A DNA stretch of 37,975 nt from NCBI GenBank assembly GCA_022775765.1, contig JALFKC010000039.1, positions 1 through 37,975 of the forward strand. The letters are read 5' to 3'. Within the stretch, counting starts at the first letter, position 1; each line of letters begins with the position of its first letter. Origin of the DNA: Campylobacter sp. (GTDB taxonomy: Bacteria > Campylobacterota > Campylobacteria > Campylobacterales > Campylobacteraceae). The translations under genes were made by a program, and so were the position numbers. Positions 220-7,138 of the stretch are shown here, in pieces. The notes beneath the pieces are model-generated. The model was not told where the DNA came from. It did no database searches and saw nothing but the letters and a program-made list of their open reading frames with translations.

Positions 220-2071
220 TGTTTTTTAATAAAAAAAGCACTTTTTCATCTTTACTTACAAAAATTTCGCCACTGTTGCTATAAAAGTAGCTAGGAAGTG
301 AATTTATCTCTTTTGATATCATATCAAATCGCCTTGAAATGGCACTTATATCACTTCTTAAAAAGTTAGGTTGGGGTGAATATTTTTTAGAATATAGATA
401 TAAATTTAGCGAGTTTAGATTTATTTTTTCAAAGCTTAGCAAAACCTCATCAAAATCCTTACTTTTACTAGATATTAAACTCTCTTTTAGAGCATTGATT
501 CCAGCCAAAATCTGCTCTCTTAGTTCGCTGTGATCGCTATTAATCTCAAAATAAAGACCAAATTTATCGAGTAAATTTAAGATATTTGGAATTATCTCAT
601 CCTTGCTTGATTTTCGCCAAATCATCACAGAAACCAAAACTGCAATCACAAATCCCACAAACATATCGCTAAATCTCACCATTAAAAGGTGAAAAAAATT
701 ATCACTAATTAGGCCAAACATCACGCAAAGCGAACCCATCAAACTCGCACTCCACACCAAATATCCAAAAACCTTCGTATAAAACACCAAAAATATAGCC
801 ACAAATATCAGCGTATAATAAAGCTCACTTCCCCTTAAAATAAATACAAGCAAAGCGGTCACAGCCACTCCCAAAATACTTCCTATTATTCCTTGTTTTA
901 ATGCAATTCCGGTGATAGTTGAGTTGGCCTTCATCACACCCATTACGCCTAGAGCTAGCCAAACGCCGTGATCTACTTCGAAAAACCGCCCCACAAACAC
1001 AGCTCCAGCTGCTGCAAATGCAAACTTAAAACAAAACTGAAAATATGGATTTTTTATATCAAATAGACTTAAATATTCACGCAATTTAAAGCCACTCTTT
1101 GCTACTTTTAGTGGCACAAAACCGCCTTTTACCATCAAAAAGACATTATGATACAAGATATCAAGACCAGCACTAATCATAGCAAATTTATAGTCATCTT
1201 TTACACTTTTATAAACGCTCTCACGCAAATTTATCTCTTTTTGGCTAAAGATATTTTGAAGCTCATTGATATTGTGAGAGATCTCGTGCTGGATAGCTTT
1301 AAGTTCGGCGTTGCCCCTATTTTCTTTGAAAAACATACTAAGAGAATTTAAAGAGTGCAAAATTTCATCACATTTGTAGAGATAAAAAAGCACCCTTTCT
1401 TGGTGTTTTACAAGGATTGGGTCGCTATAATTTGCACTTTTAAAAGACATTACAAGCTTGATTTCAGTGATTTTGTCAAATGATTTTTGTAACCAAAAGT
1501 TAAATTTATCATCAAAAAGAGCATTTACAGCTAAACTCATCTCATTTAAAAGCACCCTAAACTCGCCACGCGTATAAACCCCATACTTCTTAAAACTCAA
1601 AGTCCTAAACGCTATCCCTACAACCCCACCAATGATATAACCCTCAAGCATCGTTATAAGTGGGCTATTCATCGCCTCAGCTGCTACAACAGCAATCAAA
1701 ATGCTAAGAGATTGCGTCATCAAAACCTTGGATAAATTCTGGCTAACCTTAGCAATACTTAGGGCAAAAAATAGCCAAATAAACACCAAAATACTAAAAT
1801 ACACCCCCAAATTTATAAACCACCACACCAAAAATAACCCCAAAATACAAGTTAGTGCGTAGATACAAATAAATATAAATCTATCTTTTCTAAAACCATT
1901 TATATTGTTTAAGAAAAATACTCCAGAACAGGTCGTAACCGACCAAATAGCCACCTGTGCATTTAAAAAATAGTAACTTATCAAAACGCTTACAATCAAA
2001 GCACAAGTCGCCTTTAGTGAGTAAATAAGCGAGAAAAATCCGGGGTCATATTTGTGAAAAAACTCTCTCAT
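179..2071 (-). CDS. FUSC-family (YccS-like) inner membrane protein
   Basis: This 630-residue protein has two blocks of membrane helices, roughly residues 10-165 and 345-480. A long soluble, helical region lies between them and a soluble tail follows. That duplicated layout, with W-x-A-L-G followed by a small-residue helix in the second block (VWLALGVMGVMKANSTITG), is typical of the FUSC/YccS/aromatic-acid-exporter superfamily. Members are inner membrane proteins thought to export aromatic or other toxic organic acids; the substrate here is unknown. The frame is open to 2104, but I chose the ATG at 2069-2071 because it overlaps the pcm stop as ATGA, which suggests translational coupling. It is the last gene of a minus-strand group with pcm. 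Confidence 0.8.
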   Translation of the reverse strand: MREFFHKYDPGFFSLIYSLKATCALIVSVLISYYFLNAQVAIWSVTTCSGVFFLNNINGFRKDRFIFICIYALTCILGLFLVWWFINLGVYFSILVFIWLFFALSIAKVSQNLSKVLMTQSLSILIAVVAAEAMNSPLITMLEGYIIGGVVGIAFRTLSFKKYGVYTRGEFRVLLNEMSLAVNALFDDKFNFWLQKSFDKITEIKLVMSFKSANYSDPILVKHQERVLFYLYKCDEILHSLNSLSMFFKENRGNAELKAIQHEISHNINELQNIFSQKEINLRESVYKSVKDDYKFAMISAGLDILYHNVFLMVKGGFVPLKVAKSGFKLREYLSLFDIKNPYFQFCFKFAFAAAGAVFVGRFFEVDHGVWLALGVMGVMKANSTITGIALKQGIIGSILGVAVTALLVFILRGSELYYTLIFVAIFLVFYTKVFGYLVWSASLMGSLCVMFGLISDNFFHLLMVRFSDMFVGFVIAVLVSVMIWRKSSKDEIIPNILNLLDKFGLYFEINSDHSELREQILAGINALKESLISSKSKDFDEVLLSFEKINLNSLNLYLYSKKYSPQPNFLRSDISAISRRFDMISKEINSLPSYFYSNSGEIFVSKDEKVLFLLKNIANEQEKIYRFFS

Positions 2072-2700
2072 TCTTTGCCGTCCAAAAGTGGGATAAAATC
2101 GCACTTTTCAAGAAGTTCTTCTTGTATTTGATTGTCGCTAAATTTGGTAAATTTGGTTATAAATTGAGTTCCATCTTTGACAAAAGGTGCTACTAAAATT
2201 CCACCGATTTCAAGCTGATTAAATAGCCTTTCATTAATCTTTGGTGTGGCAGCTGAGAGCAAAATCCGCTCAAATGGTGCGTAGCTTTTCCAGCCGTAAT
2301 TTCCATCGTCGTGTCGGACATAAATATTTGTGATATTTAATTTTTCAAAGCTTTTTTTGGCGTCTTGAGAGAGTTTTAAGATCCGCTCAACGCTAAAAAC
2401 TCGCCTTACGATTTTGCTTAAAATCGCTGCTTGATAGCCACTTCCACACCCTATTTCTAGGATTTTATCCACACCATCAAGCTCTAGAGCCATTGTCATT
2501 TTTGCCACTGTTAGGGGCGAACTGATCCACTGCGAAGAGGCTAACGGTTGGGGGTTTAGCTCAAAGGCGTACTCTTTAATTGGCACAAACTCACTCCTAT
2601 CAACCCCCAAAAAAGCACTATACACCGTAGGCGAGAGATTTACCATATCAGCGATATTATCAGCTAAGTTTTGGCATTTTTTTTGCGTTAAAATATCCAT
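2068..2700 (-). CDS. pcm: Protein-L-isoaspartate O-methyltransferase
   Basis: Pcm transfers a methyl group from S-adenosylmethionine to L-isoaspartyl residues in aged cytoplasmic proteins and so starts their repair. The 210-residue product has the class I methyltransferase glycine motif LEIGCGSGYQAAIL, the Pcm-typical QPLASSQWISSPLTVAKM segment upstream of it, and the FERILLSAATP strand downstream. The frame is open to 2733, but the ATG at 2698-2700 is preceded by AGGAA at a good distance, so I use that start. The stop overlaps the ATG of the FUSC gene, and a membrane protein gene lies 38 bases upstream. The length is normal for the family. Confidence 0.92.
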   Translation of the reverse strand: MDILTQKKCQNLADNIADMVNLSPTVYSAFLGVDRSEFVPIKEYAFELNPQPLASSQWISSPLTVAKMTMALELDGVDKILEIGCGSGYQAAILSKIVRRVFSVERILKLSQDAKKSFEKLNITNIYVRHDDGNYGWKSYAPFERILLSAATPKINERLFNQLEIGGILVAPFVKDGTQFITKFTKFSDNQIQEELLEKCDFIPLLDGKE

Positions 2701-2738
2701 CAAATTTCCTAAATTTTTGGGTAATTTTAACACAAATT

Positions 2739-3401
2739 TTAGATTTTTCTAAATTCCCCAACCTTTATCCACGCAATTATTTGCGATAAAAATGATATTA
2801 CAAAGGCGATATTGCTATAATTTTCAAAGTTTTCAGCTCTGCTAAATTTCCAAGCTTGCTCACTATAACCACTATAAATTTGAAGTAAAATGCTAATTAT
2901 CAAAAACCCTATATAAAACACAAAAAATAGCTCTTTGCTTGATTTGTAAAGCTCAAATATAACTCTTACATATTTGTAAAATGCGTAAATTATGCCAAGA
3001 AACATAACTATCAAAATTATTAAAGATAAAATATCTGACCCTGTGTTAAAAACAACTATATAAAAACAAACGAGAATTCCCGCCAAAATCGCAATAACTT
3101 TCACAAATGAAGAGTAGTATTCATAAACATAAGAATTTGTATAGTCGCTGATGGTTTTAAATATGCCAAACCAATTAGAAATAAAAAATACAAAAATAAG
3201 AATTCCTATAACTATAAATATCTCATTAAGCCCACCAAATAGATTTTTACACAACCACATAGTCCCAACTGGCAAAGCAAACCCTACCAAAATTATATTC
3301 ATAAGGGCTTTGATTTTTACTCTTTTTAGAGTTTTTTTATCCATATTTTGTGGGGCGTCGCTGTTTTGAAAATCATCATTTTGAGCTAAATCTGTTTGCA
3401 T
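2739..3401 (-). CDS. Hypothetical protein with six predicted membrane helices
   Basis: I do not recognise the family. The 220-residue product has a polar N-terminus of about 30 residues rich in Asp, Asn, Gln and Lys. It is followed by six hydrophobic segments at about 33-50, 58-77, 97-116, 121-142, 157-175 and 198-216. Several helix ends carry Tyr and Lys. There is no signal peptide, no metal motif and no obvious catalytic residue. A GGGA ribosome binding site precedes the ATG. It lies between the glutathione fusion gene and pcm on the same strand and may be cotranscribed with them. The regular hydrophobic pattern and clean start make it a real gene. Confidence 0.75.
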   Translation of the reverse strand: MQTDLAQNDDFQNSDAPQNMDKKTLKRVKIKALMNIILVGFALPVGTMWLCKNLFGGLNEIFIVIGILIFVFFISNWFGIFKTISDYTNSYVYEYYSSFVKVIAILAGILVCFYIVVFNTGSDILSLIILIVMFLGIIYAFYKYVRVIFELYKSSKELFFVFYIGFLIISILLQIYSGYSEQAWKFSRAENFENYSNIAFVISFLSQIIAWIKVGEFRKI

Positions 3402-3468: not shown

Positions 3469-6114
3469 TTACTCATAAATTTTCAAATCATCAAACAAAA
3501 ATCCCAAAAACGCCTTTCCTAGCTCTCTTTTTTTGCCAACACCAAAAAGATGAATTAGCATTGCAGGGTTAAAGTTCGCCTCAATCACAGCGTAATCGCC
3601 GTGCTTTTTATAATCTTTGATGATGATATCCACCCCACACACTTTCGCCCCAAGAGAGTGTGCGACTTTAGTAGCCACACTTTTGTAAAACTCATCAACT
3701 TCGTCGGTTAAATCATAGGCAATCCCACCTGTTGAGATATTGCTATTGCGTCTTAGTCTGGCTTTTTGATCTTTTGCTAAGATAGAATCAAAGCTAAGAT
3801 TTTGAAGGGCTAATTCAAGTCTTTCTAGTTCGCCTTTTTTGATTTTGATAAGTGGGGTTTTGTGATTTTCACCACGCAACGGATTTAGATTTTCTTTGTC
3901 AATTAGCTGCGAGATAGTACTTTTGCCATCCCCAATCACGTTTGCTGGCTCTCTTTTGCAAACTGCCAAAACTACGCCATCTTGCACATAAAATCTAAGC
4001 TCATCACCGCTTACAAACTCTTCAATTATCACGCTACTATCTTCTTTAAAGGCTAAATTTAGTGCGTTTTCAAACTCACCGAAACTTGGACGCTTCTCAA
4101 AAATAGTAATCCCAAGCCCATAATTTGTGCTTTTTGGCTTGATAACAAAGCTCTCAAACATTTCATAATACTCAAGTGCGTCTTCTAAGCTCTCAAAACT
4201 CTTGCCATCAGGGATTTTTATGCCAGCTTTGTTTAAAATAGCTTTAGTTGCGACTTTGTTTTCCATCAAAAAATAGCTTATTAGGCTATCTTTTGAGCTC
4301 ATATTTGCGTTTTTAACAAACTCGCTTTTGCCACCATAACTTAGCTTTAAAAGGTTGTCTTTTTTGTCAATTATTTCCACGCTCACACCATAAGAGATAG
4401 CGTTTTTAAGCAGATCTTGAGTAGAAATCTCAAGCCCTTCAAAGCCGTGAAGATTATACCCTCTTTGCAAATAGAGCTCTTTGTGTTTTCTAGCCAAATC
4501 AAGCCCAAACTCGCTAAATTCATCCAAATTTTTACAAATTTGAGTGATTTTAGCACTCAAGGTTTTAGCTGGATTAGAAATCATCTTAAGCTTTTCTTTT
4601 ATTGTGTTTTTAAGATTAGTATCTTTTAGATTGGATGAGATTTTAAGCATAAATTCCAAAATTTTAGTAGCTTTTTGCGGATTAGGACAAGGCGAAATTT
4701 GGCTTGAATTTGCAACTTCTAGGCTGAGTTTATCGCCTAAAGCTTCGCTATATTCATCATCTTCATCAATCAAAAGCATAGCGATAATAAAAAGCTTAAT
4801 AAAATCCAAATCATCTTTTAATATCCCATAAGGTGCAAATGGATTAAGATCAAAATTTCTAAACTCAAGATAGCTGATATGCTCTCCATCAAACTTAAGC
4901 CTTACAGGTTTATAAAGCTCTTTTGGGCTTATGAGTTCTCCACTATTTACAGCATTTGCTATATCATTTTTATATCTTTCAAACGTTAAATATGAGACCG
5001 AAATCTCACTTGGATTTTTGTAACCAAAACTACTTTGACGAATTGATTTTAGCGGTATTTTTATTAAATTACTATTTGGATAATCTTTACTAATATAAGG
5101 ACTAGCTCCATATAAATAGGTCAAAATATAGCGGTATTTTAGATAATTTCTAGCAAGTTTTAGATAAAAAGTGTCTTTAAGCCTTGGGCTAAAGTGCTTT
5201 GCTAGAGAGCTTGCTAAACTAAAATTGTAGTGAATTCCGCATATCAACTGGGGCTCTTTGCCATACTTTTTGATTAAATATTTGCGGTAGTTTAATGCCT
5301 CAGCGTCATCAAACTGTGCTATTTTGATATTGCTAATTTTTGCAGGTGTGCTAAATGGCCAAAAAAACTCGTCTTTGTATAAATTTGCAGCGATTTGATG
5401 GGTGGCTTTGAGATAGTTTATCACCTCATCTGAGCTTTCGCAAGGCGGGGTGATAAACTCAAGTTGATTTTCAGCAAAATCCATCTTAATATAGGGATTT
5501 TGACTTGGGCTTCCAAAGCTTTTGTGATGGGGAATTTGACTAAACTCGCCATCTTTGCTCACCCTTAAACTCTCTTTTTCAATACCAACTGGACTTTTAA
5601 ACAAAGCTTTGATTTTGGTAGATAAAAAATCCCTATAAACTCCATCTTTTTGTGGAAATGGCAAATTCTCAAGCACTGCTTTTTGAAAATTTTCTTTGAA
5701 TTTAGCAGGATAATTGTACTTTTTTAGCCCATCTTGTATGACTTTGATATACCTTGATGGTATGACGCCGCAAACTTCTTGTTTCTTGGTCGCTCCAAAG
5801 GCAAAAAGTGGCTCTTTGTAGCCATTAAGGGATAAAATTTCATAGCCTTTTTCTCTTTTGATTAACCTTTCAAACTCATCTTCGCTAACTTTAATCACCA
5901 CGCCGTAAGCTTTTGAGTTTTTGTCTGCTATGAGATTTAAAAATAGCGTATCATAGTCCCCATCAGCGTAGCTTAAAAGTGCCGAAATTCCCCAAAACTG
6001 CTTGTATCCAGCTAGCTCTATTGGGATAACTTCACTTGATTTGACTTCTCTGCCGATAGTTTTAGCTAGACTTTTTAAGTTTATTAGCGAACCATAGCCA
6101 AAGACATTTATCAT
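3469..6114 (-). CDS. gshAB: Three-domain protein: gamma-glutamylcyclotransferase-like + glutamate-cysteine ligase + glutathione synthetase
   Basis: The 881-residue chain has three parts. Residues 1 to about 155 look like a gamma-glutamylcyclotransferase/AIG2-type domain: the substrate-loop motif YGSL is at 7-10, and a candidate catalytic Glu88 sits in REKGYE. From about 165 to 600 follows a GshA-type glutamate-cysteine ligase, starting with GIEKESLRV and MDFAENQLEFITPP. The C-terminal 280 residues form an ATP-grasp domain (FVIKPKSTNYGLGITIFEK; VIEANFNPAM) as in bifunctional GshAB/GshF. GshA and GshB make glutathione in two ATP-dependent steps; cyclotransferases cleave gamma-glutamyl bonds to 5-oxoproline. 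Having both on one chain is unusual. The start is ambiguous: the ATG at 6112-6114, one base after the nrdB stop, is preferred over upstream ATG/TTG codons inside nrdB. Ligase assignments are firm; the activity of the first domain is inferred. Confidence 0.88.
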   Translation of the reverse strand: MINVFGYGSLINLKSLAKTIGREVKSSEVIPIELAGYKQFWGISALLSYADGDYDTLFLNLIADKNSKAYGVVIKVSEDEFERLIKREKGYEILSLNGYKEPLFAFGATKKQEVCGVIPSRYIKVIQDGLKKYNYPAKFKENFQKAVLENLPFPQKDGVYRDFLSTKIKALFKSPVGIEKESLRVSKDGEFSQIPHHKSFGSPSQNPYIKMDFAENQLEFITPPCESSDEVINYLKATHQIAANLYKDEFFWPFSTPAKISNIKIAQFDDAEALNYRKYLIKKYGKEPQLICGIHYNFSLASSLAKHFSPRLKDTFYLKLARNYLKYRYILTYLYGASPYISKDYPNSNLIKIPLKSIRQSSFGYKNPSEISVSYLTFERYKNDIANAVNSGELISPKELYKPVRLKFDGEHISYLEFRNFDLNPFAPYGILKDDLDFIKLFIIAMLLIDEDDEYSEALGDKLSLEVANSSQISPCPNPQKATKILEFMLKISSNLKDTNLKNTIKEKLKMISNPAKTLSAKITQICKNLDEFSEFGLDLARKHKELYLQRGYNLHGFEGLEISTQDLLKNAISYGVSVEIIDKKDNLLKLSYGGKSEFVKNANMSSKDSLISYFLMENKVATKAILNKAGIKIPDGKSFESLEDALEYYEMFESFVIKPKSTNYGLGITIFEKRPSFGEFENALNLAFKEDSSVIIEEFVSGDELRFYVQDGVVLAVCKREPANVIGDGKSTISQLIDKENLNPLRGENHKTPLIKIKKGELERLELALQNLSFDSILAKDQKARLRRNSNISTGGIAYDLTDEVDEFYKSVATKVAHSLGAKVCGVDIIIKDYKKHGDYAVIEANFNPAMLIHLFGVGKKRELGKAFLGFLFDDLKIYE

Positions 6115-6115
6115 C

Positions 6116-7138
6116 TTAGAAGTCATCAAAACTTAGGCTTCCTTTGCTATAATTTGTCACTTTACTCTCAAAGAAATTTGACTTTTGATCGTTAAATTTG
6201 GCAAAATCATCGACCCATTTTATAGGGTGTTTGGCACCATAGACTCTTTTTAGCCCAATAGCTACTAGGCGTTGATCTACAAGATAGTGAATGTATTCGG
6301 TGATAATATCATCTGTAAAGCCCATAATTTGGTTATTTGTGATATATTTGCCCCACTTAATCTCAAGCTCGCCCGCCTTTTTAAACATATCGTAAATTCT
6401 ATCTTCTATCTCTTTAGTGAAAAGATCGGCTCTTTCTTTACGCACTGAGTTTATCATATTTTGGAAAAGTAGTAAGTGAGTGATCTCATCTCTTTGAATA
6501 AAGCGGATCATTTGGGCAGAACCTAGCATTTTCCCAGCCCTAGCCAAGGCATAAATCGCGGTAAATCCGCTATAAAAATAGATCCCTTCTAAGATTTGAT
6601 TAGCCACCATTGCAAGAAGTAGCTTCTCTTCAGTGACATCACCTGCTAACTCTTCATAAAGACTTGAAATATAGTCGTTTTTCTCTCTTAAAACATCGTC
6701 ATGTTTTTCCATCTCATAGATAAGATCGGTATTTTCACAGATCGCTTCCACCATCACAGCGTAACTTTTTGAGTGATTTGCCTCTTCGTAGGCTTGCCTT
6801 GTAAGAACCGCATTGATTTCAGGGGCGGTAATATAGGGATTTATGTTATCTGCTAAGTTGTTGGTTTGAAAACTATCCATCGAAATAAGCTGACTCCAAA
6901 CCAAATCATACATTCTTTTTTCAGCTATAGTAAGGTTAAAATTGTAGTCGCGGACATCATCAGTCGTATCGACCTCTTTTGGAAACCAAGTGTTTGCCTC
7001 CATCAAATCCCAAAGCTTTAAAGCCCACTGATATTTGGCTTTGGTGAAGTTTAAAATCCCTTGTGGATTGCCACCAAAAATTCTCCTCTCACCTAGAGTT
7101 TCGTTAGAATTTGGGTTATAGATTTTTTTTCTTTGCAT
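6116..7138 (-). CDS. nrdB: Ribonucleoside-diphosphate reductase class Ia, beta subunit
   Basis: NrdB holds the diiron-tyrosyl radical cofactor that drives reduction of ribonucleotides by NrdA in the cytoplasm. The 340-residue protein keeps the full set of residues known from E. coli NrdB with a shift of four: Asp88, Glu119 and His122 in EEANHSKSY, the radical Tyr126, the [11 protein letters not shown] segment with the next Glu, and RDEITH carrying the last Glu and His. AGGAA precedes the ATG. It opens a minus-strand group; the glutathione fusion gene starts one base after its stop. No nrdA is in the window, so the two subunits are encoded apart. Confidence 0.95.

Follow-up and report, generated by a model that had tools for sequence, protein, structure and literature searches.

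In-frame fusion of a GGCT-fold domain and a complete GshAB in one Campylobacter genome

Results

Overview

In a Campylobacter sp. genome, a single gene encodes a GGCT-fold domain and a complete GshAB as one continuous frame, GshAB standing in the place of the domain's usual membrane/TPR partner. This anatomy is regarded as close to certain. The GshAB part would make gamma-Glu-Cys and then glutathione, and on the same chain the N-terminal domain would turn gamma-glutamyl compounds into 5-oxoproline by cyclisation. The likeliest role of this cyclisation would be to clear gamma-glutamyl side products at low flux, or else to trim gamma-Glu-Cys or glutathione for editing or level control. The explanation as a whole, the fusion anatomy together with the proposed dual gamma-glutamyl chemistry, is given a probability of about 0.5. 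Its functional part, on-chain cyclisation serving low-flux clearance or trimming, is put at slightly less than even odds.

The fusion gene

The gene lies on the minus strand of the window, by which we mean the whole stretch of 37,975 nucleotides that was analysed. The frame is open over 881 codons without a stop (window 3469-6114) and the protein begins MINVFGYGSL. The GshAB model NF002688 scored 806.1 bits against a cut-off of 425, covering residues 169-877 and profile positions 14-755 of 756. The open frame and this match bear out the initial annotation, which had described a cyclotransferase-like domain, GshA and GshB as one chain in one frame.

The listed frame reaches back to a TTG at 6129. 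An alternative start, ATG 6126, would give a protein of 885 aa and sits within the 3' end of nrdB. A Shine-Dalgarno-like AAGGAAG is found 11 nt upstream of this ATG. Furthermore, the free homologue of the domain in another Campylobacteraceae genome (G117) has the identical start position behind its own nrdB, with no later ATG close by. For these reasons ATG 6126 appears the likelier start, as judged from sequence, than ATG 6114. The 14-base overlap between the listed frames of nrdB and the cyclotransferase-like gene is the same in the window and in G117. Residue numbers throughout refer to the 881-aa protein from ATG 6114. The features are as follows.

3469..6126, minus strand: whole fusion gene; likely start ATG 6126 (885 aa), ATG 6114 giving 881 aa
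5632..6114, minus strand: N-terminal GGCT/ChaC-fold domain, residues 1 to about 161 (AlphaFold2 model, PDB fold matches, family alignment)
6085..6093, minus strand: Gly8-Ser9-Leu10 of YGSL, putative substrate-site loop motif by analogy with the GGCT superfamily; invariant in 26/26
5851..5853, minus strand: Glu88, candidate catalytic residue in R-E-K-G-Y; invariant in 26/26 and aligned with ChaC2 Glu83
5596..5637, minus strand: junction, residues 160-173 (YRDFLSTKIKALFK); the tail of the free homologues is gone and GshAB lacks its own ATG
4470..5613, minus strand: GshA (glutamate-cysteine ligase) domain, from about residue 168 (PF04262, 212 bits); boundary with GshB approximate
3472..4469, minus strand: GshB ATP-grasp domain (NF002688 to residue 877, PF18419 ATP-grasp_6, alignment with 3LN7/3LN6); boundary approximate
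6116..7138, minus strand: nrdB (ribonucleotide reductase small chain), upstream and overlapping the fusion gene (PF00268, 246 bits)
2068..2733, minus strand: pcm, downstream neighbour (PF01135, 183 bits)

The N-terminal domain

The search of the N-terminus for a cyclotransferase family, proposed in the initial annotation, gave a divided answer. ChaC (PF04752) reached 16.0 bits on the fusion protein, under its gathering cut-off of 21 bits, but an orthologue (L012) passed the cut-off with 23.9 bits and the predicted fold matched GGCT and ChaC2. ChaC was also the most frequent Pfam match of the N-domain family, being matched at E<=0.1 by 20 of the 26 members. Since a sequence profile of the domain gave only spurious weak matches to PDB sequences, fold comparison was employed. 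The AlphaFold2 model, built from 26 sequences, had a mean pLDDT of 93.4. Foldseek against the PDB placed human GGCT first (3cry, 2rbh), followed by ChaC2 (6k95), GGACT (3juc), YtfP and a related domain in allophanate hydrolase; there was no other match of weight. The probability was 1.00 for GGCT and ChaC2, and the TM-scores to the nearest structures were moderate, about 0.5-0.6.

Gly8, Ser9, Leu10, Arg87, Glu88, Tyr91 and Tyr122 are invariant in the family (26/26 for Gly-Ser-Leu and for Arg87-Glu88). The catalytic Glu83 of human ChaC2, located by means of the Glu83 mutant entry 6KY1, aligns with Glu88. The YGSL motif and Glu88, which had been singled out beforehand from the sequence, thus hold up, and invariance together with this alignment makes Glu88 a sound candidate for the catalytic residue. 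Model and sequence taken together assign the domain to the GGCT-like superfamily, and to no characterised subfamily within it.

Identity and origin of the GshAB part

Judged by its sequence, the region from about residue 168 to 877 is a complete GshAB. In addition to the NF002688 match, a second model (TIGR01435) scored 609, below its cut-off of 656, and Glu_cys_ligase (PF04262) matched the GshA part. Alignment with 3LN6, 3LN7 and the GshAB of the MAG Campylobacteraceae bacterium AS22ysBPME_266 (G011) showed that the GshA Glu/Asp/His and ATP-grasp Lys/Asp/Glu/Asn positions are invariant; these are the positions taken to form the metal and substrate sites.

GshAB is rare in the Campylobacterota: among 397 genomes of the class, only the window genome and G011 scored above the family cut-off. 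In the tree the window enzyme is sister to that of G011 (100/99), and both fall in a clade with Aerococcaceae of the Bacillota (100/100). This fully supported grouping makes it likely that GshAB was gained by lateral transfer, with Bacillota (Aerococcaceae) affinity. The second, unfused Campylobacteraceae GshAB, which groups with Aerococcaceae enzymes, is present at L002:1483-3630 (plus strand; the same gene as L042:2953-5100).

The locus and the join

pcm follows nrdB immediately, or almost so, in 12 of 13 congeners. The window differs in having two genes between them, the fusion gene and, on the opposite strand, a small gene for a membrane protein. The latter (2739-3401, plus strand) encodes a multi-helix protein of 220 aa between the fusion gene and pcm. 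In one congener (L148) the gap between nrdB and pcm holds an unrelated-looking membrane protein, indicating that the gap takes up different genes. In G117 the free cyclotransferase-like gene occupies the same position behind nrdB. The N-domains of the window and G117 group together (93/54); as the tree joins two long branches here, the grouping rests mainly on gene position.

At the join, a short linker connects the halves, the tail of the N-domain and the start of GshAB both being gone. An assembly artefact is unlikely on this sequence evidence from one strain, since both flanks keep the native gene order of the genus. The single genome, in 93 contigs and from one strain, would be compatible with an assembly chimera or with a sequencing error that erased the stop between two genes, but this is very improbable because the start position and the nrdB overlap are those of G117, and a single-base error cannot delete a tail of about 20 residues plus the start of GshAB.

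Rarity of the fusion

The window genome was alone in having a cyclotransferase-GshAB fusion among 153 genomes of the family, and likewise among 397 of the class. The conservation across Campylobacter that the initial annotation had considered is thereby refuted at the level of species representatives (1/153). The best 80 GshAB genes of the genome_contigs collection had no N-domain-like extension, a scan of the same collection with the N-domain gave no confirmed relative, and searches of plasmids and viral contigs gave no match. No openly licensed paper describing a cyclotransferase-GshAB fusion was found. The fusion is real but, so far, a single-genome event, and conservation consequently offers nothing in favour of function.

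Free homologues and the membrane/TPR partner

The N-domain profile was positive in 32 of the 397 class genomes, a count that includes the window genome and distant matches. Most belong to one family (f9), which we read as Arcobacteraceae; the Campylobacteraceae genomes G117 and G074 are also among them. The 22 free members in the alignment carry a conserved tail, YxFxDPxQNxxAK, and in all 22 the gene that follows codes for a conserved membrane protein. The count takes in L019 and L020, whose tails escape the search pattern but are evident in their sequences. This partner, 691 aa in G117 and 758 aa in G074 at full length, has predicted membrane helices close to its N-terminus and a TPR-like C-terminal half. 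The members scanned gave no Pfam match above cut-off and no NCBIfam match. Modelled with AlphaFold, the partner reached medium confidence (pLDDT 73), and its structural matches were to generic TPR proteins and point to no particular function. Examples of the partner are L133:766-2841 and L132:772-3048 (both minus strand), together with the genes 3' of the free domain in L012-L038.

The free cyclotransferase-like gene and the membrane/TPR protein are likely a functional pair. Four members have no tail, namely the window protein, L039, L040 and L041, and in all four the partner is absent nearby; it was not found anywhere in the window genome. The coincidence suggests a tail that works for the partner and that disappeared once GshAB took the partner's place, a suggestion that phylogeny confounds.

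In L039 (1432-2496, minus strand) and L040 (1492-2496, minus strand), which come from two other Campylobacterota families, the domain forms the C-terminus of a longer protein that has a membrane helix at its N-terminus. Together with the GshAB fusion, these proteins indicate repeated fusion of the domain. An RraA-like gene (PF03737 in L027) lies directly 5' of the free cyclotransferase-like gene in most of L023-L038, which belong to f9.

Metabolic context

Eleven genomes that have the domain and no GshAB were sampled, nine with the free protein and two with the domain joined to a membrane domain. Glutamate-cysteine ligase PF04262 was found in none of the 11 and PF04107 in one (G369), leaving 10 without either known family of the ligase. 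The ancestral substrate of the domain family was therefore probably not glutathione made by the cell; it may have been glutathione taken up from outside or some other gamma-glutamyl compound. This also bears on the initial description of the domain as glutathione-degrading: membership of the GGCT-like superfamily stands, by fold and residues, but the breakdown of glutathione is not established. ChaC proteins degrade glutathione, whereas the majority of GGCT-fold proteins do not (PMC7340319).

Neither GGT, PxpA nor an OplAH-type 5-oxoprolinase was found in the window genome. No known route would thus recover 5-oxoproline released by the domain, and this argues against a large flux. The negative results for GGT and known 5-oxoprolinases also make complete recycling of glutathione less likely and weaken the cysteine-recovery cycle suggested at the outset.

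Discussion

The possibility has to be weighed that the two halves are fused and not coupled. A laterally acquired gshAB may have inserted behind a cyclotransferase-like gene that was already there, and the resulting in-frame fusion may have been tolerated, the N-domain keeping an old substrate other than glutathione or being passive. This is a strong rival, although we hold it to be doubtful. The fusion occurs in one genome only, relatives of the domain occur in genomes without glutamate-cysteine ligase, and a free GshAB in the same genus has no such domain, all of which this reading would accommodate. However, the join is tidy, since the N-domain has lost its tail and GshAB its start with a short linker left between them, and the active-site residues are intact in both halves.

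A more specific form of the coupled chemistry, held somewhat more tentatively still, is a self-editing glutathione synthase, in which the N-domain would clear wrongly made gamma-glutamyl amino acids, or a surplus of gamma-Glu-Cys or glutathione. Synthesis and clearance would then be set by one protein.

It is improbable that the same chain breaks down glutathione in the manner of ChaC, whether to brake the glutathione level or to supply Cys-Gly. Such a role would be consistent with the standing of ChaC as the most frequent Pfam match of the family, and with the E-K-G-Y motif common to the N-domain and ChaC2. Moreover, the ChaC of Francisella breaks down glutathione (PMC7340319), and a brake could be useful if GshF is free of product inhibition, as it is described in PMC12840475. 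On the other hand, the closest fold is GGCT and not ChaC2, most proteins of this fold leave glutathione uncleaved, and the window genome yielded no GGT or known 5-oxoprolinase. More improbable again is a non-catalytic N-domain that would sense gamma-glutamyl compounds or serve GshAB as a docking domain. The TPR-type partner of the family elsewhere hints at protein-protein roles, but the family, divergent as it is, keeps Gly8-Ser9-Leu10, Arg87-Glu88, Tyr91 and Tyr122 without exception.

The reading preferred here remains dual gamma-glutamyl chemistry with low-flux cyclisation. Should both halves be active, gamma-glutamyl bonds would be formed and broken by one and the same protein. Metabolite proofreading or level control in glutathione synthesis could then be studied in a natural example, which would also offer a first way into a widespread, uncharacterised cyclotransferase-like family of the Campylobacterota and its membrane/TPR partner.

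Comparison with known systems

The GshAB part aligns over its full length with the nearest solved structures of GshAB/GshF, with 42% identity to 3LN7 and 40% to 3LN6. The fusion protein has approximately 165 extra N-terminal residues, against at most 43 in the 80 GshAB genes of genome_contigs closest to it. The closest GshAB, that of G011 in the same genus, is 54% identical, but it is a separate gene at another locus, with no N-domain and a 715-aa frame whose natural end is a TAG.

The N-domain has the fold, the (F/Y)GSL loop and the E-K-G-Y motif with the catalytic Glu in common with ChaC (human ChaC2, 6K95; Francisella FTN_0599), whereas it scores under the Pfam gathering threshold and its 27% identity to ChaC2 extends over only 85 aligned columns. 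With GGCT and GGACT (3CRY, 2RBH, 3JUC) it shares the fold, GGCT being the best PDB match, yet the identity is just 10-14%. The free homologues in f9, G117 and G074 are the same domain, with 31-40% identity and the same invariant residues. They are proteins of about 190 aa that have the conserved tail, are followed by the gene of the membrane/TPR partner and lack GshAB, whereas the fusion has GshAB and neither tail nor partner.
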